From Cupriavidus pauculus (lineage in GTDB: Bacteria > Pseudomonadota > Gammaproteobacteria > Burkholderiales > Burkholderiaceae): 64,000 nucleotides of DNA. Under the pieces are notes generated by a model. It did no database searches. It was given only the letters and a program-made list of their open reading frames with translations, and was not told the DNA's origin. This document shows positions 17,317-28,725 of this stretch, one piece after another (position 1 is the first letter of the stretch; the number at the start of each line of letters is the position of its first letter). The translations under genes were made by a program, and so were the position numbers. The stretch is taken from contig NZ_CP044067.1 in assembly GCF_008693385.1 (NCBI RefSeq), forward strand, positions 2,275,501 to 2,339,500, written 5' to 3'.

Positions 17317-18696
17317 TTACATCGGGCGTCCCGCCTCGACCCATTCCTTCGTCGCACTCGAAGTGAGGCGAAACCGCGCGCAGTTGTACTCCCCTAGCGA
17401 CTGGAGCGTTTCAGCGAGCAGGGCGGCGAAGCCCGGAGCCTTGTCTTCCGTATGTTCCACAGCCCTGATCGCAGCGTCGGCGGGCTGGCGATCGAGCACG
17501 ACCATTCTGATGGCGTCTTCGAGCGCGGGCCGATAGCGAAGGCGCCTCGGGTCCGGTGCGGCGAAGGAGTTTTTCACCGCGGCGTACTTCCTGATGGATC
17601 TGCGGTAGGTCCATGCGAAGAGATCCACGGCCGCCGACGTGTCTCTGAGTTCGTAGATGCCGAGCATGGCCTGCGCATAATCCGACGGATCCACATCGAG
17701 GAACGATAGGGGTGCGCAGTTGTACAGCATCAAGGGAATATTCGCGGCAAGGCGGCTCGTGCGTTTGTTGCCATCCTCGAAAGGTTGCAGGTAAGCGACG
17801 TTGACCCAGAGGAAAAACGCGCCTTCGACCGGGTTCTTGATGAGACGAGCCTTGTCGACGATGGCCTGCAACATCTCGTGCAGTACCGCCGGCACCTGAG
17901 CGGGAACGTAAACGGTGTCGCTGATATTGACGACGGTGCTCCGAATGGCGCCCAGGGCGTTGTCGTTCGCAAGCAGGGCCTCCATCAGCGTTGCATGCAG
18001 ATTCCGGAGTACGGCCATCGTCAGGCCTTCAGTGGGAACGCCCTCCACCAGATACTCGATCGCGCGCTTGTGATTGAGCAGCATGGTTGCGTCGGCATCG
18101 TCTCCATCCACGCCGCGCTCGAACAGTTCCTTCGTTGCCAGCAGCGTGTATCGATTGCCTTCGAGGTGGGATGAGGACCAGGACAGGTCTACCAGCAATT
18201 GCTCGAAGACCTTGCGCGCGTAGGTTCCCGCCGGTTGCTGGTCAGTCAGGCGGCCCAGTTGATAGAGCTCATCGGCCAGCCCTTGGGGAAGCAGGAAACT
18301 GTCGTTCGGACGATATCCATCGACGAAGCCGCGATGATATGTGACCGGGGCCCTGGCACCGAGCGGCGCGCTCAACTGCTCGCGCAACACGCGGGATGCC
18401 TGCGACCAGTTGGGATGGGCGTACGGATCGGACGCGGGTGCGTTGCTGGCGGCAGGTCGGGCGATAGGGCTGGCTACCCCGACCTGCGACGACCCCGTCA
18501 AGCGATATCGGGTGGCTCTGGCCTGTCCCGTGCGCGTCAGCTTGCCATTGGCCAGCAAAGCTTCCAGATGTCGGCGGACCGAGGCCGAACTTCCTTGAAG
18601 CTCGCGCGTGACTTCGCTGGAAGACACCTCGTTCCTGCCCGCGTTGGCGAGTCGTTCGATCGCGTCGAGTACCTGTTCAGGAGAAAGACGTTGCAT
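17317..18696 (-). CDS. Fic-domain protein with N-terminal winged helix
   Basis: 459-residue protein. Residues about 5-65 form a winged-helix DNA-binding region (SSSEVTRELQGSSASVRRHL then a KLTRTGQARATRYRLTG wing). The Fic region has an N-terminal inhibitory motif of class II type, S-x-x-x-E-G in SSHLEGNRYT (about residues 173-178). The core loop is LQPFEDGNKRTSR (about residues 302-314). The canonical loop is H-x-F-x-D/E-G-N-x-R; here the catalytic histidine is glutamine (codon CAA), so ordinary AMP transfer is doubtful. Some Fic subfamilies seem to carry this change naturally. The upstream region is filled with repeats of the element TGAGCAGATT, suggesting self-regulation. Confidence 0.82.
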   Translation of the reverse strand: MQRLSPEQVLDAIERLANAGRNEVSSSEVTRELQGSSASVRRHLEALLANGKLTRTGQARATRYRLTGSSQVGVASPIARPAASNAPASDPYAHPNWSQASRVLREQLSAPLGARAPVTYHRGFVDGYRPNDSFLLPQGLADELYQLGRLTDQQPAGTYARKVFEQLLVDLSWSSSHLEGNRYTLLATKELFERGVDGDDADATMLLNHKRAIEYLVEGVPTEGLTMAVLRNLHATLMEALLANDNALGAIRSTVVNISDTVYVPAQVPAVLHEMLQAIVDKARLIKNPVEGAFFLWVNVAYLQPFEDGNKRTSRLAANIPLMLYNCAPLSFLDVDPSDYAQAMLGIYELRDTSAAVDLFAWTYRRSIRKYAAVKNSFAAPDPRRLRYRPALEDAIRMVVLDRQPADAAIRAVEHTEDKAPGFAALLAETLQSLGEYNCARFRLTSSATKEWVEAGRPM

Positions 18697-18707
18697 GGTT
18701 AGGGCTC

Positions 18708-18808
18708 AATCTGCTCAGTTTGTGAGCAGATTAAGCTAATCTGAGCGGATTTGCAATGAATCCGCTCAGATATGAGCAGATTCTGGGCAGATTCATGAAA
18801 TCTGCTCA
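18708..18808. repeat. seven-copy 10-bp element array upstream of the fic gene
   Basis: Copies of TGAGCAGATT or close variants, in alternating orientation: 18708-18717 (reverse), 18723-18732, 18742-18751 (variant with GCGG), 18759-18768 (reverse, variant), 18773-18782, 18784-18793 (one mismatch) and 18799-18808 (reverse). Pairs form perfect inverted repeats: 10 bp arms with 5-bp spacer (18708-18732), and 13 bp arms with 7-bp spacer (18739-18771). The last copies run into the end of the upstream ABC gene. It looks like a cooperative operator array for the winged-helix/Fic protein. Confidence 0.75.
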
Positions 18809-20208
18809 CCCCGCATCTCTACACGCCGCATCGCGACGCTGGCCGCGATGAACGGATCATGCGTGACGAGCATCAGCGCGCATCCGCGCTCGCGGGTCAT
18901 GCCGATGAGGATGTCGATGACCTCTTTCTGGGTGATCGGGTCCAGTCGTGACGTGGGTTCGTCGGCGAACAGGAAGACGGGGTCGAGCAGCAGCGCGCGG
19001 AGCAGGGCGAAGCGCTGGAGTTCGCCGCCGGAGACTTCGCCGGGCAGGCGCACGAGCAGTGCGTCGGGCAGGCGTATCTGCCGCATCAGCGGGGCGATGC
19101 GCGCGCCGTCGAGGCGATGAAGTTTGCACAGGTCGGCCAGCGCCTGGCCGATGCTGCGGCGCGGGGCGAACGCGGAGGTGGGCTCCTGATAGAGCTTCTG
19201 GTAGCGCACGCGGTCGATGGCCGTGTGGCGGCGGACCGTGCCTTCGTCGGCCGCGTGCAGTCCAAGCAGGACGTTGCCCAGCGTCGATTTGCCGCTACCG
19301 CTCGGACCCGTGACGGCGACGCGGTCGCCCGCGTGGAGGGTGAGGTCGAGATGGCGGAACAGCGCTCGTTGCCCGAAGCGCTTGCCCAGACGCGTGGCAC
19401 CGAGAATTTCCTCGCCGGGTTCCGCTACCGCGTGGGCCGTCCACGCTTCCGGGTCGGCGGCGATCAGTGCACGCGTGTACGCGTGCGCGGGCTGCGCCAG
19501 CACGGTCCGCGCCTCGCCACGTTCGACGATATCGCCGCCCAGCATCACCGCGACATCCCCGCCCAATGCGCGTGCGACCGCGATATCGTGGGTGATCGTA
19601 AGGACCGTGCAGCCTGCATCCAGCGCCTGCCGCAGTCGCGCGACGATCTCGTCGCGACAGGCATGATCGAGCCCCTTGGTCGGTTCGTCGACGATGAGCA
19701 CCGGCGCCCCGCCAGCGCGCGTGATCGCGAATGCCGCGCGCTGGGCCATGCCGCCGGACAGCGTGATGGGCCATGCCATCGCCGCGTCCCCGATACCCAG
19801 TGTGCGCAGATCGTCGAGCGTGCGCGACCATGCCTCGGCACGCGATTTGCCGGCGACCAGCGCATGCGTTTCCGATAACTGAGACCCGACGCGCATGGTC
19901 GGATCGAGCGCGCCCCACGGCTCCTGCGGCAGCAGCGCAATCTCGTGGCCCCAGCACGCGCGGCGCGATGCGCCATCGGCGGCATCGAAGGCGCGGCCAC
20001 CCAGCACGACGCGGCCATGCGCGCGCAAGCCACGCGGCAGCGTGCCCATGATCGCATGGGCAAGCACGCTCTTGCCCGAGCCGCTTTCGCCGAGCAGCGT
20101 GAGGGCGCGGCCGGCGTGCAGCGCGAACGATACGGGCGCCAGCAACCGGCCATTGGCACCTTCCACATGCAGTGCCTCGACTTCGAGCAATGGCTGCATT
20201 GGCGTCAT
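18793..20208 (-). CDS. peptide/nickel-type ABC transporter, double ATPase
   Basis: 471-residue protein with two complete ABC domains, equivalent to DppD/NikD and DppF/NikE fused. The first has Walker A GESGSGKS, signature LSGGMAQR and Walker B VLIVDEPT; the second has GPSGSGKST, VSGGELQR and FLFADEPT. It energises import through the two permeases encoded just upstream. The ATG at 20208 overlaps the permease stop by four bases (ATGA). It is the last gene of the cobalt-linked uptake operon. Its final codons lie within the repeat array of the neighbouring fic gene. Confidence 0.9.
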   Translation of the reverse strand: MTPMQPLLEVEALHVEGANGRLLAPVSFALHAGRALTLLGESGSGKSVLAHAIMGTLPRGLRAHGRVVLGGRAFDAADGASRRACWGHEIALLPQEPWGALDPTMRVGSQLSETHALVAGKSRAEAWSRTLDDLRTLGIGDAAMAWPITLSGGMAQRAAFAITRAGGAPVLIVDEPTKGLDHACRDEIVARLRQALDAGCTVLTITHDIAVARALGGDVAVMLGGDIVERGEARTVLAQPAHAYTRALIAADPEAWTAHAVAEPGEEILGATRLGKRFGQRALFRHLDLTLHAGDRVAVTGPSGSGKSTLGNVLLGLHAADEGTVRRHTAIDRVRYQKLYQEPTSAFAPRRSIGQALADLCKLHRLDGARIAPLMRQIRLPDALLVRLPGEVSGGELQRFALLRALLLDPVFLFADEPTSRLDPITQKEVIDILIGMTRERGCALMLVTHDPFIAASVAMRRVEMRGEQIS

Positions 20209-21002
20209 GCGGCGTGCCTCCGGTTTGCGCCGCCGCCAAGCAGCACCATGGTCAGCGTGGCCAACGTCAGCACGACGATCGGGCTCGCGATGATCCACGG
20301 CGCCTCGGCGGCGTAGGGCAGCAGTTCGGTCATCATCAGGCCGAGTTCGGCCGAAGGCGGCTGCGCGCCGAGTCCGACAAAGCCCATCGCGGCCAGCGCA
20401 AGCACCGCGGCACTCGCGCCGAAGCTCATCAGCGTGCCGAGCAGCGGCAGCACCTCAGGCAGCACGTGATGGCGCAGCACATGCATCGGCCCAAAGCCAA
20501 GCAGTCTCGCGGCCTCCACATGCTCGCTGGCAAGCTGCACGGCCGCCGATGCGCGCGTGACGCGGAAGTACTCGACCCACAGCACGAGCGACAGGCCGAC
20601 ATACAGCGGCCAGAACGCACCCGGCGCAAACGCGCTGAGCAGCAGGACGAGCAGCAGGCCGGGCAGCGCGAGCACCGCATCGGCGATAGCGCCGATCGTG
20701 CGCGCGGTCCAGCCGCCTCGCCAGGCGGCCAGCAGACCCAGCAATGTCCCGGGGATCGCGGCAGTAAGCACACTGAGCACGGCGAGGCCAAGCGACAGAC
20801 GGCTTGCACTCGCCAGCCGCGCCAGCATGCTGCGGCCGAGGTGATCGGTGCCAAGCGGTTCCTGCAGACTCGGTGCCTGCAGGATGCCGTACAGGTTTTG
20901 CTCGAACGGCGCGCGGCCGGCGACCCACGGACCCGCAAGTGCAAACGCGGCCAGCAGCACAAGCAGCGCAAGCCCTGAAAGATGGCGCGGAGAGCGAAGC
21001 AT
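20205..21002 (-). CDS. ABC transporter permease (DppC/NikC type)
   Basis: 265-residue inner-membrane permease with about six hydrophobic segments. The N-terminal region has the DppC/OppC hallmark LGTDHLGRSMLARL, and the coupling-loop region (about residues 150-210) is of the usual E-A-A type (HVEAARLLGFGPMHVLRHHVLPE). The start at 21002 lies two bases after the stop of the partner permease. It forms the second half of the membrane channel of the metal-chelate importer. Confidence 0.88.
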   Translation of the reverse strand: MLRSPRHLSGLALLVLLAAFALAGPWVAGRAPFEQNLYGILQAPSLQEPLGTDHLGRSMLARLASASRLSLGLAVLSVLTAAIPGTLLGLLAAWRGGWTARTIGAIADAVLALPGLLLVLLLSAFAPGAFWPLYVGLSLVLWVEYFRVTRASAAVQLASEHVEAARLLGFGPMHVLRHHVLPEVLPLLGTLMSFGASAAVLALAAMGFVGLGAQPPSAELGLMMTELLPYAAEAPWIIASPIVVLTLATLTMVLLGGGANRRHAA

Positions 21003-21004
21003 CG

Positions 21005-22069
21005 TCACGGCGCGCTCCCCGTGCCGGTGCCGCGCGACCATGGACGCAACCGCAACCGGGGATCGATCCACGCGCAGGCGATGTCCACCAGCGTATTGAG
21101 CGCGACGAACAGCAGCCCCATCACGATGGCGGTGCCCTGGATCATGGGCACATCGCGGCCGAAGATCGCATGCACGAGTGCGTGGCCGATACCGGGCCAC
21201 GCGAAAAGCGTCTCGATCACGACCACGCCTTCGACGAGAAACACCAGCTGGACGCCGAGGTACGCGACCAGCGGAATCGCCGCATTGCGGACGCCGTGCC
21301 GCAGCAGCGCGTCGCGGTCGGCAAGTCCCTTGGTCTGGGCGAAGCGGAAATAGGCCGACGATGTCACCGCGGCCATGGCGTCGCGTGCCACGCGCATGGC
21401 GGTGGCGGACAGGCCGAGCCCCAGCGTGATGGCCGGCGCCAGCAGGCCGCCATGATCGTGCGGCCCCGCGGCCGGGATCAGCGCGAAATCGATCGACAGT
21501 ACCGACACCAGCACGATGCCCAGTACGAACGGCGGCATGGCACGCAACAGCACGGAGGCCACGAGCGTTGCACGGTCGGCCGCGCCACCGGCGCGCAGGC
21601 CCGCGACAAAGCCCAGCGGCACCGCGATGGCGCAGGACACGGCAAGCGCGGCCATCGCCAGCATGAGCGTATGCCCAAGCTGGTGGCCGATCTCCGCGAC
21701 GACTGGCGCGCCGGTGACCGCGGAAAGACCGAAGTCGCCCTGCAATAACCGGTGCCACCACTGCATCAGTGCCTGCGCCCATGGCAGGCCGAGGCCAAGT
21801 TCGGCGCGCACGGCCTCCGCGGCCTGGGCAGTCACCATGTCGTAGCCATAGCGGCCCGCCGCCACGCGAAACGCCATGTCGCCGGGCAGCAACCGCATCA
21901 TCACGAAGCTCAGCGTGCCCACGAGTGCCGCCACGATCAGTGCCTGCACACCGCGCTGGAGCACGATGCGGCCGACGGCGCGGCCGAGGCCGCCAGCCGA
22001 TGCGCGGCGGGTCGGGGACGCGTCCGGCAACGAAGCCTCGTCGGGAAGGGAAGCGGATTGCTCGTTCAT
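21005..22069 (-). CDS. ABC transporter permease (DppB/NikB type)
   Basis: 354-residue inner-membrane permease with a polar N-terminal extension of about 40 residues, then hydrophobic segments. The DppB-type sequence FVMMRLLPGDMAF follows the first membrane segment, and the coupling loop is FRFAQTKGLADRDALLRHGVRNAAIP. The ATG at 22069 overlaps the stop of the binding-protein gene (ATGA), so translation is coupled. An upstream in-frame start at 22078 would add three residues. Confidence 0.88.
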   Translation of the reverse strand: MNEQSASLPDEASLPDASPTRRASAGGLGRAVGRIVLQRGVQALIVAALVGTLSFVMMRLLPGDMAFRVAAGRYGYDMVTAQAAEAVRAELGLGLPWAQALMQWWHRLLQGDFGLSAVTGAPVVAEIGHQLGHTLMLAMAALAVSCAIAVPLGFVAGLRAGGAADRATLVASVLLRAMPPFVLGIVLVSVLSIDFALIPAAGPHDHGGLLAPAITLGLGLSATAMRVARDAMAAVTSSAYFRFAQTKGLADRDALLRHGVRNAAIPLVAYLGVQLVFLVEGVVVIETLFAWPGIGHALVHAIFGRDVPMIQGTAIVMGLLFVALNTLVDIACAWIDPRLRLRPWSRGTGTGSAP

Positions 22070-23652
22070 GAAGACCACTGCAGTGGCGTCAGACGGTAGG
22101 TGCGCTCGTACGGATCGATCGACACATTGGCGAGGCGCGGGTTGGCCGCGAGCGTCTGCCGATACCAGACCACGGGAATCAGCGGTAGCTCCTGTTGCAG
22201 CACCGCGGCGATTTGCCCACGCAAGGTCTGGGCCTGCCGGGTGTCCACGGTGGCCGGCAGTTCGGCGATCGCGCTGGCGATGGCCGGTGCGTGCCAGCCC
22301 ATGGGTCCCCAGTCACCGCCCTCTCCGCCGAAATCCTGCGCGACGGCCCCGAACGCGTCGGGTACCACGCCGTAGTTGCGCGCATATAGCGCCAGTGCCA
22401 GGGTACCGTCGCGGTGCGCGAATGGAATGTCGCTCGAGTTGCCGACCGCCACGCGGACGTCGATACCGGCGAGACGCAACTGCTCCTGAATGGCCGTGGC
22501 GATGACGGGCAGTTCCGGCCGGTCGGGGAATGTGCGCAGGGTCACCGCGAAGCGCGCATCGCCGCGCCGCAGGATACCGTCGCGGCCGGGCGTCCACCCG
22601 GCCGCGCGCAGCAGTGCCTGCGCGGCACCGGTATCGTGCGTCAGCGGTGGCAGCCGCGCATCGTGCCAGCCCGGCAGCGATGGCGGAAACAGCTGGGTGG
22701 CGGCAAGTTCCGGATCCCGCAGGATTGCGCTGGCGATCCCGCGCCGGTCGAGCGCGAGCGACATCGCGCGCCGCACGCGCGCATCGGCGAGAAACGGATG
22801 CCCGGCGTTGACCTTGAGCAATGTGGTACGCGGAATGGTGACCGCGTGCACCCGCACGTTGGGGTCGTGACGCAACCGCGCGAGCGTGCCGGGATCGAGA
22901 CCGTAGGCGAGCTCGGCCTGTCCGCCCTCGATCATCAGCGCGCGCATCTCGGCACGGCCCACCGACAGATAGGAGGCCTCCCGGACGGCAAGCTGCACCC
23001 CCCGCCAGCCGTCGAACGCGGCAATCGAAAATCGCTGTGGAGGCTCGAGCTCGGCGATGCGATAGGGCCCGGAGCCGACGATGGCGCGCACATTGCCATC
23101 GCGGCCGAACGACGCCGGCGCGAGCACCTGCGTGCTGCTGTGCGACAGCAAGGCGAGCAATGGCGAGAATGGCCGCTCCAGCCGGATGAGCACCGCATCC
23201 GTTTCGGCGTCGATGGCCGCGATCGGCGCGCGCGCGAGTACGCCGGCGGCATGCCGCGCACGGGTCAGCGCCGCGACGATATCGACGGCACGCACCGACG
23301 TGCCGTCATGGAAGCGCGCATCGGGGCGCAGCGCAAACCGCCATGTCAGCCGATCGGCGGACACGGTCCAGCGCGCGGCCAGCCCGGGCACCGGCGTACC
23401 GTCGAGGTCGTAATCGACGAGCGTCTCGGTGACCTGCATGCGCGCGAACAGATAGCCATTGCGCAGCGGATCGAGACTGGAAAGCTCCCACGGCCCGATC
23501 ACGCGCACGCCATGACGCGACATGGCGGGTGGCGGCGCGGTGGAATGCGCCCGTGCTGCCGAAGCGAGCCCGGCCAGCGGCGACAGCATGGCCGCGCGCA
23601 GCACGCGGCGCCGCCGCGCGGAGTCAGGCAGTGCGGAGCGGGACGTCGTCAT
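22066..23652 (-). CDS. peptide/nickel-family extracytoplasmic solute-binding protein
   Basis: 528-residue SBP_bac_5 family binding protein. The N-terminus has an arginine cluster (SARRRRVLRAAM) before a hydrophobic core, possibly a Tat signal, with cleavage near ARAHS. The mature region has the family pattern of GYLFARMQVTETLVDYD, RDARFHDGT-like and FLADARVRRAMSLALDR segments. Its ATG overlaps the TonB receptor stop as TGATG. Periplasmic. Relatives bind peptides, nickel chelates or xenosiderophores. Position behind a TonB receptor and cbtBA suggests a metal chelate rather than a nutrient peptide. Confidence 0.86.
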   Translation of the reverse strand: MTTSRSALPDSARRRRVLRAAMLSPLAGLASAARAHSTAPPPAMSRHGVRVIGPWELSSLDPLRNGYLFARMQVTETLVDYDLDGTPVPGLAARWTVSADRLTWRFALRPDARFHDGTSVRAVDIVAALTRARHAAGVLARAPIAAIDAETDAVLIRLERPFSPLLALLSHSSTQVLAPASFGRDGNVRAIVGSGPYRIAELEPPQRFSIAAFDGWRGVQLAVREASYLSVGRAEMRALMIEGGQAELAYGLDPGTLARLRHDPNVRVHAVTIPRTTLLKVNAGHPFLADARVRRAMSLALDRRGIASAILRDPELAATQLFPPSLPGWHDARLPPLTHDTGAAQALLRAAGWTPGRDGILRRGDARFAVTLRTFPDRPELPVIATAIQEQLRLAGIDVRVAVGNSSDIPFAHRDGTLALALYARNYGVVPDAFGAVAQDFGGEGGDWGPMGWHAPAIASAIAELPATVDTRQAQTLRGQIAAVLQQELPLIPVVWYRQTLAANPRLANVSIDPYERTYRLTPLQWSS

Positions 23653-25760
23653 CAGTAGCTGAGCCGCAGGCCCACACGCACGGTGCGGCCAAGCCCCGGC
23701 GCCACCCACACGCTGCTGTACGAGTTCACGTAGTAGGTGCGGTCGAACAGGTTATCGACGTTCATCGTCACGCGCACGGTCTTGCTGTATTGCCAGTAGG
23801 CGAGCACGTCCGCCAGCGTGTACGCGGGCAGCGAAAACGAATTCTGCGTATCGCCGGCCCGCGTGCCGACATAGCGCACGCCGCCGCCCACGCCATAACG
23901 CTGGCCGATCGGCGCCTGATCCTCGTAGATCGCCATGACGCTGCCGCTCGTGCGCGGAATATTGGCCAGCGGCGTGCCCGGCGCGAGGCGCGAGTCCTGC
24001 GTGACCTCCGCATCGGTGAACGCGAAGTTGCCCGTCACGCGCCAGTTCGTCGTGATCTGCCCTGCCACATCGAGTTCCACGCCGCGGCTGCGCGCTTCGC
24101 CGGCCGCGATCTGGAACGACGCGTCGAGCGGATCGGTGGTCAGCACGTTGCGCTTGCGGATGTCGAACACCGCGAGCGTCGCGCTCGTACGGCGATCGGT
24201 GCTGTCGAACTTCACGCCGGCCTCGAGCGCGCGGCCGTGTTCGGGCGAGAACGCGTTGCCGCTCGCGTCGCTCCCCGCATTCGGCCGGAACGAACGGCTC
24301 GCATTGGCGAACAGCGAGACGTTCTGGCTGGCGAGGTAGGTCACGCCGATGCGCGGCGACACCGCGGTCTGGTGCTGGCCGGTGCCGGTCGCGCGCAGGC
24401 GGTTGTCGAGCGACTGGTTGTAGATGTCGAAGCGCGCGCCCGCGAGCACGCGCCAGCGCTCGCCGAACTGCATCTGGTCCTGGGTGTAGAACCCGACGTT
24501 GGTCTGGCGCTCGTACGTGTTCGTGTTGGGCAGCAGCGCCGGCGGCGTTTGCCCATAGACCGGCGCGTAGATATCGATCGCGTAGGGCGCCGCGGTGCTC
24601 GGATTGCGCCGCAGCAGCACCTGGCTCGTGCTGAACCGATAAGTGTCAACACCCAGCAGCAACTCGTGCCGGACCGGACCGGTCGCGAACTTGCCCGTGA
24701 CATCGGCTTGCAGCGATACGTCGTCGGACTGGAAGTCGCGATAGCGGCGCTGCCGCGTCAGCGTGTGGCCGTCGGCCTGTAACGCGGTAGCCTCGGTCGA
24801 GAAGCCTTCGAGGCTGCCGCCGCGATAGGCCATCGCCACGCGGCCCTTCCAGTCCTCCGAGAACTGATGTTCGACGGACAACTGATGGGACTGGCTGTCG
24901 AGGCGGATGTCGCCATCGTTCGGCTCGCCGAGGAAACGGGAGCGGGGCACGGCACCGAGGTGCCCGTTGACGGCCACGACGCCACGGTCGAGCGGTACCG
25001 TATAGCGCTGGATCTCGGCCGCATACTCGATGATCGTGTTCGGTCCCACGGCCCATGTGATGGATGGCGCGAGCAGATAGCGCTGCGTATTGACGAAGTC
25101 GCGCGAGCTGCCGTTATGGTCGGCCACCGCGATCAGCCGTCCCGCCACGTTCTCGCCGAGCGGTCCGGTGATATCGGCCACGCCGCGATAGTGATCGTAG
25201 TTGCCGGTTTCGATCTCGTACGTCTGCGCCGGCTTGAACTGTGGCTGACGGGTGACGATATTGAGAATGCCGCCCGGATCGCTGCTCCCGTACAGGGACG
25301 AGGCCGGGCCCTTCAGCACCTCGATGCGCTCGATCGTCGCGGTATCGCGCGGCGCGGTGTAACCGCGATTGGCGGCAAAGCCGTTCACGAGATAGCCGGC
25401 GCCGGTGTTCTCGTTGCCGCTGAAGCCGCGCACCGCGTAGTTGTCCCAGAGGCCGCCAAAGCCGTTCTGCCGCGATACGCCGCTGGCATAGTCGAATGTC
25501 TGGTCGAGCCGCGAGGCCCCGATATCCTCGACGAGCGTGCGTGGCAGCACGCGCACGGACTGCGGAATTTCACGCAATGGCGTTTCGGTGCGCGTGGCGC
25601 CGGTGGCATAGCGCGGGGCGTAGCTGTCCTCCGCCACACCGGTGACCACGACTTCCGGCAGCCGCGCTTCTTCCGCGCCGGCTTGCGCGGCGACCAGCGT
25701 CGCGGCGAGCGCGAGCGAGTGGGGAACGATGCGGGACGAAGACATTCGAGGCGCGGGCAT
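23652..25760 (-). CDS. TonB-dependent metallophore receptor
   Basis: 702-residue outer-membrane receptor of the siderophore type. A signal peptide (residues about 1-28) is followed by a TonB box (PEVVVTG), a plug domain (RETPLREIPQSVRVL-like region to GGILNIVTRQP) and a 22-strand barrel ending GRTVRVGLRLSY. It starts 72 bp after cbtA and is translationally coupled to the binding-protein gene. The 72-bp gap holds a 6-3-6 inverted repeat that may be an internal operator. Likely brings a cobalt or nickel chelate, or a xenosiderophore, across the outer membrane for the ABC system encoded next. Confidence 0.87.
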   Translation of the reverse strand: MPAPRMSSSRIVPHSLALAATLVAAQAGAEEARLPEVVVTGVAEDSYAPRYATGATRTETPLREIPQSVRVLPRTLVEDIGASRLDQTFDYASGVSRQNGFGGLWDNYAVRGFSGNENTGAGYLVNGFAANRGYTAPRDTATIERIEVLKGPASSLYGSSDPGGILNIVTRQPQFKPAQTYEIETGNYDHYRGVADITGPLGENVAGRLIAVADHNGSSRDFVNTQRYLLAPSITWAVGPNTIIEYAAEIQRYTVPLDRGVVAVNGHLGAVPRSRFLGEPNDGDIRLDSQSHQLSVEHQFSEDWKGRVAMAYRGGSLEGFSTEATALQADGHTLTRQRRYRDFQSDDVSLQADVTGKFATGPVRHELLLGVDTYRFSTSQVLLRRNPSTAAPYAIDIYAPVYGQTPPALLPNTNTYERQTNVGFYTQDQMQFGERWRVLAGARFDIYNQSLDNRLRATGTGQHQTAVSPRIGVTYLASQNVSLFANASRSFRPNAGSDASGNAFSPEHGRALEAGVKFDSTDRRTSATLAVFDIRKRNVLTTDPLDASFQIAAGEARSRGVELDVAGQITTNWRVTGNFAFTDAEVTQDSRLAPGTPLANIPRTSGSVMAIYEDQAPIGQRYGVGGGVRYVGTRAGDTQNSFSLPAYTLADVLAYWQYSKTVRVTMNVDNLFDRTYYVNSYSSVWVAPGLGRTVRVGLRLSY

Positions 25761-25773
25761 ATTGTCTATCTAT

Positions 25774-25788
25774 TGCAACAAAGTTGCA
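25774..25788. promoter_or_regulatory. 6-3-6 inverted repeat before the TonB receptor
   Basis: TGCAAC-AAA-GTTGCA in the cbtA-receptor gap, 14 bp before the receptor start. It resembles a compact metalloregulator operator in form, but I cannot match it to a named family. It may add a metal-responsive switch to the riboswitch-controlled operon. Confidence 0.45.
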
Positions 25789-25832
25789 TATGGTAGCAGC
25801 GAAGGGCCCACGCCCGGATAGAAAATTTTCGT

Positions 25833-26555
25833 CTATGAATGTCGTATGAGCAGCGGCTGGGCAAGGGCGCCGAACAGCAGGCCGAGGGCGGCCCACAGCA
25901 CGGCCTGCATGCCGAACGCCGCGACGCGGAAGTGCCAGAGCAGGGAGGCAGGAAATGCGTCGGGGACTTCGTTGACCGTGGGCAGCAAGGCGCAGGCCAG
26001 ACCGATCAGCACGAGGTACATCGCGCCGCCAGCCAGCGTGGCATTCCACGCCCCGTGGCGATGGGCGAGCCGGCGCGCCAGCATGACGGCCACGACCAGC
26101 GCCGCCAGCGACAGCGCGATCATCGCGAAAAACAGCGCGGTGCGGCTGCCGATCGTCGAGGGGTCGCCGATCGAAGGCGGGTTGGGCGGGTATTTGAGAA
26201 ACGGCACCAGCACGATGGCGATAAAGGCGAGCAATGCGATCGTTGCCGACAGCGCGCGCGGGCCGAGCCTGCCGAAGCGGCCGTATACGTAAGCGAACAC
26301 GAGCGAGAACAGCCCGCCGACTGCCGTGCCGAACACGGCCAGCCCGACGAACAGCCCGAGCCCGGCCTGTACCTCGCGGCTCACGAGTTCCGGCATTTCG
26401 TGCGCGTGGCTGCCGCCCATCGCGTGTTCCATGCGCGCTTCATAAGCGATGGCGCCTTCCACCTGTGCTTCGCCGAACATTTTCGCGAACGCGAAGACCA
26501 GCAGGCACGACAGAAACCCCGCGGCCATGCCGCGTATCAACAGACTCCTGACCAT
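25833..26555 (-). CDS. cbtA: CbtA-family cobalt transporter subunit
   Basis: 240-residue inner-membrane protein with five or so hydrophobic segments, of the CbtA family predicted to import cobalt for B12 synthesis. The N-terminus VRSLLIRGMAAGFLSCLLVFAF is typical. A periplasmic loop contains a His-rich stretch (GGSHAHEMPEL, about residues 48-58) that could bind cobalt. It starts 11 bp after cbtB, and the pair is preceded by a cobalamin riboswitch. Transport function is a family prediction. Confidence 0.88.
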   Translation of the reverse strand: MVRSLLIRGMAAGFLSCLLVFAFAKMFGEAQVEGAIAYEARMEHAMGGSHAHEMPELVSREVQAGLGLFVGLAVFGTAVGGLFSLVFAYVYGRFGRLGPRALSATIALLAFIAIVLVPFLKYPPNPPSIGDPSTIGSRTALFFAMIALSLAALVVAVMLARRLAHRHGAWNATLAGGAMYLVLIGLACALLPTVNEVPDAFPASLLWHFRVAAFGMQAVLWAALGLLFGALAQPLLIRHS

Positions 26556-26566
26556 ATCGGCGCCTG

Positions 26567-26803
26567 TCAGTGGCAGGGGAAGCCGAGCAGGTGGCGACCG
26601 TCGTGGACGAATTCGTGCACGTACATCGTGTTGAAGATCGCCGCGGCACCTTCCTCCACGCCGACGAAGTAGATGGCGAGCAACAGCAGGATGCTGCCGA
26701 AGATGGCCCAGGGCAACAGTTCGCGGACGGGAATCGAGACGGGCTCGAGTGCGGGCAATGTCGGGACTGCGCGGGACGAACCGAGCGCGGCGCTGGCGTG
26801 CAT
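26567..26803 (-). CDS. cbtB: CbtB-family cobalt transporter subunit
   Basis: 78-residue small membrane protein with one transmembrane helix (about residues 32-48) and the family's His-rich C-terminus MYVHEFVHDGRHLLGFPCH, likely the cobalt-binding tail. AGGAG sits five bases before the ATG. It is the first gene after the cobalamin riboswitch and is followed closely by cbtA. Confidence 0.9.
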   Translation of the reverse strand: MHASAALGSSRAVPTLPALEPVSIPVRELLPWAIFGSILLLLAIYFVGVEEGAAAIFNTMYVHEFVHDGRHLLGFPCH

Positions 26804-26854
26804 GGAGGCTCCTTGTGGAATGACGCGTTCCGTGATGGATGGCAGGGGATCGAT

Positions 26855-26962
26855 GGAAGGTCTGACTCCCCGTGCCGTGGCATGACCGCCGGCATGGGAT
26901 ACAGTGGCGCGACCGTGCCGGACTCTCACCGGCTTCCTCGCATCGAAATCGGGTGCCATTGT
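26855..26962 (-). promoter_or_regulatory. cobalamin (B12) riboswitch
   Basis: On the minus strand the leader of cbtB shows the cobalamin riboswitch core in order: a GAGGAAGCCGGTG segment, AGTCCGGCACGGTCGC, then the B12 box GCGCCACTGTATCCC (complement of 26896-26910). A late GGGGAGTCAGACC element ends about 50 bp before the cbtB start. Binding of adenosylcobalamin should reduce expression of cbtB, cbtA and probably the downstream uptake genes. The exact ends are approximate. The promoter must lie upstream, within the divergent gene's coding region. Confidence 0.93.
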
Positions 26963-26967
26963 AGAGC

Positions 26968-27411
26968 ATGACCGTCCAACTCACCTTGTTATGCCAGCCT
27001 GCCCCGGCCGCCCTGCGCGCGGGCGTCTTTCCATCCGGCGGCGATGCGCGGGTCGATGACCGCATCGAGCCCGCGCTTCGCGACGTGGACTACGGCCGCT
27101 GGGCCGGACGGTCGCTGAAGGAAGTGGCCGATGCCGAGCCCGACGCGTTCGCACGCTGGCTCGCCGATCCGGATTTCGATGGCCATGGCGGCGAGTCGCT
27201 CGCCGCCATGCGGGCGCGCGTCTCGCAGTGGTTTGCGGCGACGGTCTGGGACGATGGCCACAGGCAGGCCGTCCTGCCCGCGAACGTGGTCAGGGCCTGC
27301 GTGCTGGAGTTGCTGCAGGCGCCGATGTCCGCGTTCTGGCATCTGGATGTGGCACCGGGCGTGAAGATCGTGCTGTCGATGCGGCAGGGGCACTGGCGCG
27401 TACAGCTTTGA
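26968..27411 (+). CDS. degenerate histidine-phosphatase-family protein
   Basis: 147-residue member of the phosphoglycerate mutase / CobC-like family. The scaffold is recognisable from ALRDVDYGRWAGRSLKEV, DAFARWLADPDFDGHGGES and AAMRARVSQWF. However the catalytic R-H-G near the N-terminus is replaced (LTLLCQPAP) and the second histidine region reads LPANVVRACVLELL without histidine. It should therefore not act as a phosphatase by the usual phospho-histidine route. It is divergent from the riboswitch-cbtBA genes and starts a few bases from the riboswitch end, so it is probably part of B12/cobalt metabolism, perhaps as a non-enzymatic relative of CobC. Confidence 0.7.
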   Translation: MTVQLTLLCQPAPAALRAGVFPSGGDARVDDRIEPALRDVDYGRWAGRSLKEVADAEPDAFARWLADPDFDGHGGESLAAMRARVSQWFAATVWDDGHRQAVLPANVVRACVLELLQAPMSAFWHLDVAPGVKIVLSMRQGHWRVQL

Positions 27412-28725
27412 TTACCGCGCCGATGCGTGCCGCTCCCACAGGCGGCTGGTCATGACCGAGCCCGACACCGCGAGGATCATCGGCACCAGGAAGTTGTGAT
27501 TGACCTGCGTGAACTCGGCCACGAGTACCACCGCCGTCAGCGGCATGCGCTGCGACGTGGCCAGGAATGCCGCGGCGCCGACGAGCGCGAATGCGCCGAG
27601 CGGCACGCCCGGCCACGCGACACTCCAGAGTCCGCCGAGCACGATGGCCATCAGCGCGCCATTGGCGAGCCCCGGCGTCAGCAGGCCGCCGCTCGCGCCC
27701 GCGCGCAGGCTGCCCACGGTCACCAGCACCTTGAGCACCAGCAGCGTGGCGGCCAGGCCGATGGCGAACTGGCTGTCGAACGCAAGCTGCGCGGCACCCT
27801 TGCCGTTGCCGAGCAACTGCGGAAAGTACATCGCGAGCGCGCCCAGTATCGTGAAATTGACGACCGCGTAGACGGGCAACTGCCAGCCGCGCGCGGCGTG
27901 GTTACGCGCGGCGTTGGCCAACTGGATAAAGGCGTGGCCGGCGAGGCCGAACAATGGGCCGCAGACGAGCGCCCACACCACGAGGCTTGCGGTTGGGAGG
28001 AAGCTTGGGACCGCGTACTGGATCTCCGCGCCGAGGCCGAGCCACGCGACGCCCGCGGCGATCGCCGACGTGGCCATCGCCAGGCACGCGGCCTGCCAGT
28101 TGAACGTGACCAGCAACACTTCCATCGTGAAGACGGCGCCGCCGAGCGGAACGTTGTAGACGGCCGCGAGGCCGGCCCCCGCGCCGCACGCGACGATCAT
28201 CCGGCGCTGCTCGGACGTGAGGCCGGTGCGCGCGGACAGCCAGCTTGCGAACAGCGCGCCGATCTCGCGCGGCGCTACTTCCCGGCCGAGCGGCGAGCCC
28301 ATGGCAACGGTGACGATCTGCAGCAGCGCATGCGCGATCGTCGTGCCCGGGGGCATCGGGCGCGCATCGGAATCCACGGTCTGCTTGACGCTCACGAGCG
28401 GCCGGCCGAAGCGATAGATCGCCCACCAGCCGAAGCCCGCGACGAGGCCGCATAGCACCAGCACGATCAGCCGCCGCTGCGCGGAGGCATGCGTCACCCC
28501 GACCAGAAAGCTTTCCGTCCCGATCGTGAAATCGAGGCTGTAGCCGTACGCCATGTGCTGGACCTTGTGCAGCAGCAACGCCAGCAGCATGCCGCCCAGA
28601 CCCGCGCCGATACCCGTGAGGATCGTCACGACACCGAGCTTCATCGAGAAGCGCGGCGCGATCGCGCCGACGGTGGGGCTGGGGTTGTCGGTGGCGGCGA
28701 GCGGAGCGGTGTCGGAAGGCTTCAT
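27412..28725 (-). CDS. ClC-family chloride channel/transporter
   Basis: 437-residue inner-membrane ClC protein with about ten or more hydrophobic segments. Selectivity-filter regions are recognisable: GSPLGREVAP (canonical G-R-E-G-P, here altered) and GASGGLLTPGL. The first conserved serine loop, G-S-G-I-P, is not clear. It may conduct or exchange chloride or fluoride. The ATG at 28725 is chosen for the usual N-terminal length; an upstream ATG at 28767 is possible. It converges on the histidine-phosphatase-like gene with no gap. Confidence 0.85.
   Translation of the reverse strand: MKPSDTAPLAATDNPSPTVGAIAPRFSMKLGVVTILTGIGAGLGGMLLALLLHKVQHMAYGYSLDFTIGTESFLVGVTHASAQRRLIVLVLCGLVAGFGWWAIYRFGRPLVSVKQTVDSDARPMPPGTTIAHALLQIVTVAMGSPLGREVAPREIGALFASWLSARTGLTSEQRRMIVACGAGAGLAAVYNVPLGGAVFTMEVLLVTFNWQAACLAMATSAIAAGVAWLGLGAEIQYAVPSFLPTASLVVWALVCGPLFGLAGHAFIQLANAARNHAARGWQLPVYAVVNFTILGALAMYFPQLLGNGKGAAQLAFDSQFAIGLAATLLVLKVLVTVGSLRAGASGGLLTPGLANGALMAIVLGGLWSVAWPGVPLGAFALVGAAAFLATSQRMPLTAVVLVAEFTQVNHNFLVPMILAVSGSVMTSRLWERHASAR

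Follow-up and report, generated by a model that had tools for sequence, protein, structure and literature searches.

The 64,000-nucleotide stretch of Cupriavidus pauculus DNA analyzed here (the window) comes from a genome of 7.06 Mb in three contigs. On its minus strand, from position 26963 down to 18793, it carries a cobalamin riboswitch followed by cbtB, cbtA, a TonB-dependent receptor, a NikA-like solute-binding protein, two permeases, and a double ATPase. A first-pass annotation of the sequence had listed these genes in this order, which Pfam domains and coordinates confirm, and had read them as one cobaltophore uptake operon repressed by vitamin B12. Our analysis points instead to two independently controlled units side by side, namely a B12-controlled cbtBA pair and a Zur-repressed importer of a chelate of zinc, perhaps also of cobalt. 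We assign this reading a probability of roughly three in four. The features of the locus are listed below in the direction of transcription; the start codons behind the gene coordinates are our own choice.

26958..26963, minus strand: -10-like element TACAAT upstream of the cbtB leader, recognized by eye; relatives have TAGAAT or TATAAT at the same place
26850..26946, minus strand: adenosylcobalamin (AdoCbl) riboswitch aptamer, RF01482, 39.3 bits and E 3.3e-5 in a relaxed search (gathering score 50)
26817..26831, minus strand: hairpin GGAA-CGCGUCA-UUCC, a candidate expression platform directly 5' of the cbtB Shine-Dalgarno sequence, from a comparison of 12 leaders
26567..26803, minus strand: cbtB, PF09489 at 38.3 bits (cut-off 27); NCBIfam TIGR02459 at 20.4 bits, below its cut-off of 64.4
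25833..26555, minus strand: cbtA, PF09490 at 249.6 bits
25789..25795, minus strand: -10-like element TACCATA adjoining the box, by eye in a line-up of ten promoters; relatives have TACTAT, TACATT, or TATAAT
25774..25788, no strand assigned: predicted Zur-type box TGCAACAAAGTTGCA in the cbtA-receptor gap, one of three exact sites in the 7.06 Mb
23652..25760, minus strand: TonB-dependent siderophore-type receptor, PF00593 and PF07715; TIGR01783 at 381.7 bits (cut-off 223.5)
22066..23652, minus strand: NikA-like solute-binding protein with an arginine-rich start resembling a twin-arginine signal (by eye), PF00496 (SBP_bac_5)
21005..22069, minus strand: permease of the NikB/Opp2B type, PF00528 (BPD_transp_1); NF045470 at 259 bits, below its cut-off of 350
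20205..21002, minus strand: permease of the NikC/Opp2C type, PF00528 (BPD_transp_1); NF045474 at 175.4 bits, below its cut-off of 300
18793..20208, minus strand: double ATPase with two ABC_tran stretches; the best NikD and NikE stretches fall on separate halves, both below cut-off

The genes from the receptor to the ATPase are tightly packed, with overlaps of 1 to 4 nucleotides (nt) and a 2-nt gap between the permeases. A spacing of 11 nt separates cbtB from cbtA, and 72 nt (25761-25832) lie between cbtA and the receptor gene, which do not overlap. The stop-to-start overlap claimed earlier applies along the receptor-ATPase series, but not to the permease pair.

The palindrome in this gap is a predicted Zur box. 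It is so named because of the genes found behind it and its match to a double Zur box of Cupriavidus metallidurans, not because of a published logo. The pattern TGCAACNNNGTTGCA has three exact sites in the genome of the window; with up to one mismatch there are 12 sites, compared to 4 for a reversed control. The second exact site precedes a COG0523 GTPase gene and is followed, 26 base pairs (bp) further on, by a one-mismatch box, whereas the third precedes a MacB-DUF3299 operon. Another COG0523 gene, in the zur region, is preceded by a one-mismatch site. The tandem boxes before the COG0523 gene match the double Zur box that extracts of PMC10882993 and PMC11340326 place before C. metallidurans cobW1. 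A literature search on the letters of the box found no published sequence of it; the ten top-ranked of its 4,515 records were unrelated papers. Next to the box lies the promoter-like element. Ten receptor promoters in Cupriavidus carry an exact box, that of the window and those of nine fetched loci; in all ten, an element resembling TATAAT, TACTAT, TACCAT, or TACATT abuts the box, overlaps it, or lies at most 2 nt away, as judged by eye. A general promoter scan of 18600-27500 passed no sigma-70 site, and it is this ten-promoter line-up that identifies the -10-like element of the gap. cbtBA is found upstream in three of the ten promoters and is absent from the other seven.

Across 60 Cupriavidus genomes, 38 exact sites were found in 21 genomes, compared to 4 reversed-control sites in 4 genomes. 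They lie upstream of this receptor (10), of ZigA-like COG0523 genes (10), of the MacB-DUF3299 operon (11, five of them approximately 600-850 bp from the ATPase gene), of other TonB receptors (5, each confirmed by Pfam TonB domains), or of nothing recognizable (2). Four further Cupriavidus genomes (L193, L202, L205, and L210) have this box before a second type of TonB receptor; in L193 and L205, a small putative membrane protein is encoded between the two. A candidate for the regulator itself is encoded elsewhere in the genome of the window:

Contig C1, 3040508-3040873: zur candidate, PF01475 at 34 bits, above cut-off; best solved relative E. coli Zur

The NCBIfam Zur model is the best match of this protein at 37.3 bits, below its cut-off of 167, and COG0523 genes lie downstream. 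With a box in its promoter and a zur gene in the genome, the receptor operon may be counted, at the level of sequence, as a putative member of a Zur regulon.

Among named organisms, Cupriavidus plantarum and C. pampae encode the proteins most closely related to the binding protein. Among 80 named loci (the best 80 of 198 places encoding a relative of the binding protein), cbtBA lies upstream in 2, and the other 78, some of which end early upstream, have no cbtA or cbtB match; a receptor was matched in 44, one of them weakly. Within the genus, a receptor orthologue of at least 68% identity is present in 34 of the 60 genomes (33 fetched loci and the window). ABC (ATP-binding cassette) genes follow it in 16, and an independent search with the binding protein recovered the same 16 genomes. 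cbtBA precedes the receptor in three of the 34 loci (the window and two other Cupriavidus), and adjoins the importer operon in 3 of the 16 genomes having it and 3 of all 60. The nine other genomes with a riboswitch and cbtBA have no receptor adjoining the pair. A position downstream of the riboswitch is therefore not a conserved property of the receptor-ABC genes. Separately, in seven other Cupriavidus loci (L146, L148, L150, L152, L157, L160, and L168), the receptor orthologue has no ABC genes, and what follows it is a putative membrane protein that contains LLSIDALRGLVIL; three of these loci (L150, L152, and L160) have a Fur-family-like gene upstream of the receptor orthologue in divergent orientation.

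These results do not bear out a single B12-repressed operon running from the riboswitch to the ATPase, which we reject because of the box and promoter-like element in the gap together with the genomic distribution. B12 is unlikely to be the signal for the receptor-ABC genes. The first-pass annotation had named two things that could set these genes apart from cbtBA, a terminator or an independent iron or zinc control. The sequence of the gap suggests the latter in the form of zinc control, and no terminator-like site was found there.

The cbtBA unit has its own control. Both the CbtA and the CbtB domain score above their Pfam cut-offs, which places the pair in CbtAB, listed among predicted cobalt transporters in an extract of PMC2667541. 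The B12 riboswitch before it had been called clear. The aptamer is real, as indicated by the relaxed search and by the relatives, but it is invisible at the default cut-off, and an Rfam search of the whole window at gathering scores gave no match. cbtA is present in 12 of the 60 genomes, and each of the 12 cbtBA leaders has a match to RF01482 or RF00174, which exceeds the gathering score in 2 and falls below it in 10, including that of the window. The comparison of -10 elements at the leader covers the alignment rows that extend that far. In the candidate hairpin, 48 of 48 cells are pairable over the 12 leaders, and only one of the four pairs changes on both sides; when the leader of the window was folded freely, the hairpin did not appear, and its support is the comparison of leaders. 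No terminator-like site was found in the cbtB leader. The region has two such sites, one of them within cbtA at 26534-26520, fewer than the shuffle mean of 4.2. As the hairpin adjoins the Shine-Dalgarno sequence and the leader has no terminator-like site, the riboswitch would control cbtB at the level of translation. A CobC-like (alpha-ribazole phosphatase-like) gene at 26968-27411 diverges from the riboswitch and cbtB; its TIGR03162 match is below cut-off. Its start lies within 10 nt of the -10-like element of cbtB, and a similar start was seen by eye in several relatives.

The proteins of the second unit resemble known importers of metal chelates. The best solved relative of the receptor is 3qlb, labelled an enantio-pyochelin receptor, a label from which no ligand follows. 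The second-best receptor matches are rows of the PDB labelled CntO; they share their sequence with rows labelled FoxA and were not used as evidence for pseudopaline. For the binding protein, the nearest relatives by single sequence and by fold are NikA proteins; by profile, a Bacillus 'nickel-binding protein' comes first, followed by NikA. The model of this protein has a confidence (pLDDT) of 88 and TM-scores of 0.84/0.89 to 2noo, the E. coli NikA fold. The residue aligned to a histidine of Brucella suis NikA is glycine in this family (by eye); we take that histidine to correspond to His416 of E. coli NikA. None of the NCBIfam equivalog cut-offs for the Nik proteins was reached (bits/cut-off: NikA 137/393, NikB 206/447, NikC 154/358, NikD 244/319, NikE 206/333). 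The same applies to the Cnt equivalog and exception models (CntA 89/800, CntC 103/440, CntD 237/380, CntF 235/385; CntB was not among the matches listed), although the CntD and CntF models are among the best matches of the ATPase. Since NikA is the nearest sequence and fold, both sets of models stay below cut-off, and the aligned histidine is replaced by glycine, the importer resembles the metal-chelate importers of NikA/Cnt type but is a member of neither family. The combination of a TonB receptor and a NikA-type ABC transporter supports the outer-to-inner-membrane chelate route proposed in the first-pass annotation.

An exporter is the likely partner of this importer. The MacB-DUF3299 operon (C3:84500-92000, L170), located behind an exact Zur-type box, encodes an ABC ATPase, an FtsX/MacB permease with a histidine-rich stretch, and two DUF3299 proteins. 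Its MacB permease is found in 19 of the 60 Cupriavidus genomes, that is, in 14 of the 16 with the importer and in 5 of the 44 without it (Fisher 6e-8, which kinship makes an overstatement). No association of MacB with cbtA was found (Fisher 0.49). We presume that PA4066 of Pseudomonas aeruginosa is also a DUF3299 protein.

Signs of zinc control extend beyond the window to some of its relatives. An exact box precedes the receptor in 9 of the 16 importer genomes, and the tenth boxed receptor lacks ABC genes. Among the 80 named loci, the receptor is preceded by an exact box in 14, and in another 17 a zinc marker (Fur/Zur family, ZnuA/B, or COG0523) lies within 3.5 kb. Among the latter are loci of Rhodoferax and Hydrogenophaga type, which carry ZnuA/ZnuB and MacB-like genes, as well as Arthrobacter-type loci (Actinobacteria) with ZnuA, an ABC-3 permease, and a Fur-family gene. 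At 3.5-7 kb, markers occur in four loci, all among the 17 (nearest match per family per side). In the Arthrobacter-type loci L045, L048, and L057, genes for a binding-protein relative and its ABC transporter adjoin those for ZnuA, an ABC ATPase, an ABC-3 permease, and a Fur-family protein; in L077 (Geodermatophilus), the neighbors are a Fur-family gene and a weak COG0523 match. None of these four loci gave a receptor match.

From these data, a mechanism with two switches can be proposed. In the first unit, adenosylcobalamin would bind the leader and shut off translation of cbtB. In the second, the receptor, binding protein, permeases, and double ATPase would be expressed from their own promoter in the cbtA-receptor gap, and Zn-Zur, by its predicted binding, would occupy the palindrome beside the -10 element and repress them. 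Under zinc shortage, a metal chelate would enter through the receptor with the help of TonB and be picked up by the binding protein in the periplasm, from which the ABC transporter would carry it inwards, a route suggested by the protein families. The MacB-DUF3299 exporter, whose operon lies at another place in the genome and has a box of this kind as well, would be a likely partner. The cargo is most likely a zinc chelate.

Several observations weigh against the two-unit reading. No box was found within 400 nt upstream in 7 of the 16 importer genomes, the C. gilardii group included, and 49 of the 80 named loci lack both a box upstream of the receptor and any zinc marker within 3.5 kb. Six box-less Cupriavidus loci are among these 80, five of them with a divergent Fur-family gene. 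For one of these Fur-family proteins, the best match among solved structures is 3mwm, an actinobacterial 'metal uptake regulation protein' that we take to be Streptomyces Zur. The one box-less gap inspected, that of a C. gilardii locus, contains an AT-rich stretch that looks, by eye, similar to a Fur site. No receptor match was obtained in 36 of the 80 loci. As the gap contains no terminator-like site, read-through from cbtBA into the receptor gene is possible. Moreover, cbtA is more frequent in genomes with the importer (7 of 16) than in those without it (5 of 44; Fisher 0.01, uncorrected for kinship), and the genomes are related, so the genus counts are not independent. Metallophore synthesis genes were not identified in two family searches, which did not cover nicotianamine synthase (PF03059). 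Opine dehydrogenase (PF10100) had no match in the genome, but none of 14 control genomes matched either; salicylate synthase had no match above cut-off, and its sub-cut-off relatives at two places were taken as other chorismate enzymes. Finally, an extract of PMC6103462 reports that only 4 of 11 computed C. metallidurans Zur boxes were verified by experiment.

The cargo cannot be read from the gene neighbors, given the precedents of P. aeruginosa PA2911-14 and S. aureus CntABCDF, and a cobalt chelate is possible. For P. aeruginosa, extracts of PMC11481552 report that one Zur-regulated operon, PA2911-14, serves to import cobalt-pyochelin and another, PA4063-66, to export it, and that cobalt has a zinc-sparing effect; this precedent is what keeps cobalt in view. 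A first alternative shares the Zur part of the two-unit reading and differs in the cargo and in the role of cbtBA: under zinc starvation, Zur would induce uptake of a cobalt chelate, cobalt would replace zinc, and cbtBA would be a functional partner. The same pair of functions, a receptor-ABC importer and a MacB exporter, lies behind the box in Cupriavidus, zinc-starved C. metallidurans can substitute cobalt for some zinc (PMC11340326, in extract), and the enrichment of cbtA with the importer fits as well. However, cbtBA adjoins the importer in very few genomes, the ABC part is NikA-type and not siderophore/B12-importer-like as described in the P. aeruginosa extracts, and no pyochelin pathway was identified beyond sub-cut-off relatives of salicylate synthase. 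We consider this alternative unlikely, while giving it real weight. An extended form, in which Zur, under zinc shortage, turns on a receptor-NikA-type route for a cobalt metallophore and cobalt substitutes for zinc, the riboswitch tunes cobalt entry through cbtBA for cobalamin, and MacB-DUF3299 recycles the metallophore, appears rather improbable. If it were true, a single locus would supply the cell with cobalt in two ways, each with its own purpose, and the route would differ from the one used by P. aeruginosa.

An iron-siderophore or oligopeptide uptake system, with iron or no metal as its signal, is a further candidate. The receptor belongs to the siderophore family TIGR01783, the binding protein and permeases belong to the peptide/nickel superfamily, and the Fur-like stretch of C. 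gilardii and the 49 loci without zinc signs agree with it. The box upstream of COG0523, MacB-DUF3299, and importer genes argues against this view, as do ZnuA/B or Fur-family neighbors in several lineages and NikA as the nearest fold. The genes found behind the box, together with the NikA fold, make peptide uptake in particular less likely, and we hold the whole proposal to be very unlikely. The single B12-repressed operon, for which the common strand, the terminator-free gap, the upstream cobalt transporter, and the real riboswitch speak, is the least probable of all, given a box and -10-like element shared with promoters that lack cbtBA, a linkage in so few genomes and loci, and a riboswitch that looks translational.

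The two-unit reading corrects a likely misreading, as relatives of the binding protein are named nickel or peptide transporters and the adjoining cbtBA hints at cobalt. The data favor a NikA-like chelate importer of Zur type in Betaproteobacteria; in Actinobacteria, relatives of it lie beside ZnuA and Fur-family genes. Because the importer co-occurs with a MacB-DUF3299 exporter that has this box too, the idea of a metallophore import/export pair can be put to the test in Cupriavidus, a genus in which substitution of cobalt for zinc has already been studied.

At the far end of the locus, several inverted-repeat copies (AATCTGCTCA...TGAGCAGATT and variants) occupy the space at 18697-18805 between the end of the ATPase gene and a Fic-domain protein gene (17317-18696, minus strand; weak helix-turn-helix matches below cut-off). 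They resemble operators, perhaps for the Fic-domain protein.

A Zur-controlled operon of a TonB receptor and a nickel/peptide-type ABC transporter was not found among the titles and abstracts listed from the open-access literature searched, and comparison with known systems shows partial likenesses. In P. aeruginosa, PA2911-PA2914 encode a TonB receptor with an ABC importer and PA4063-PA4066 a MacB-type exporter, both under the control of Zur (PMC11481552, in extract), a pairing similar to the one proposed here. Compared by description only, PA2912-14 resemble siderophore/B12 importers, whereas the ABC transporter here is NikA-type. S. aureus CntABCDF, the staphylopine importer, shares the Opp/NikA-type ABC import of metal chelates. 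Extracts of PMC5666155 state that it is raised in zur and fur mutants and works with a zincophore, and that earlier work took cobalt and nickel as its substrates. The Cnt system is Gram-positive, has no outer-membrane receptor, and keeps its synthesis genes in the same locus, whereas the importer here comes with a receptor and no identified synthesis genes. E. coli NikABCDE has the same component types and the same fold of the binding protein; the importer here differs in its attached receptor, fused ATPases, Nik models below cut-off, and the glycine in place of the aligned histidine.

The C. metallidurans Zur regulon (zupT, cobW1-3) likewise has a double box before a COG0523 gene, and zur followed by COG0523 genes. 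The extracts of published descriptions consulted contain no receptor-NikA-type ABC operon; a review table (PMC6103462, in extract) places a TonB receptor in this regulon, which may or may not be the present one. The cbtAB unit corresponds to the predicted cobalt transporter behind a B12 riboswitch. The same CbtB-CbtA arrangement follows a cobalamin riboswitch in 11 other Cupriavidus loci. It is ordinary in itself, and what is unusual here is its neighbor.

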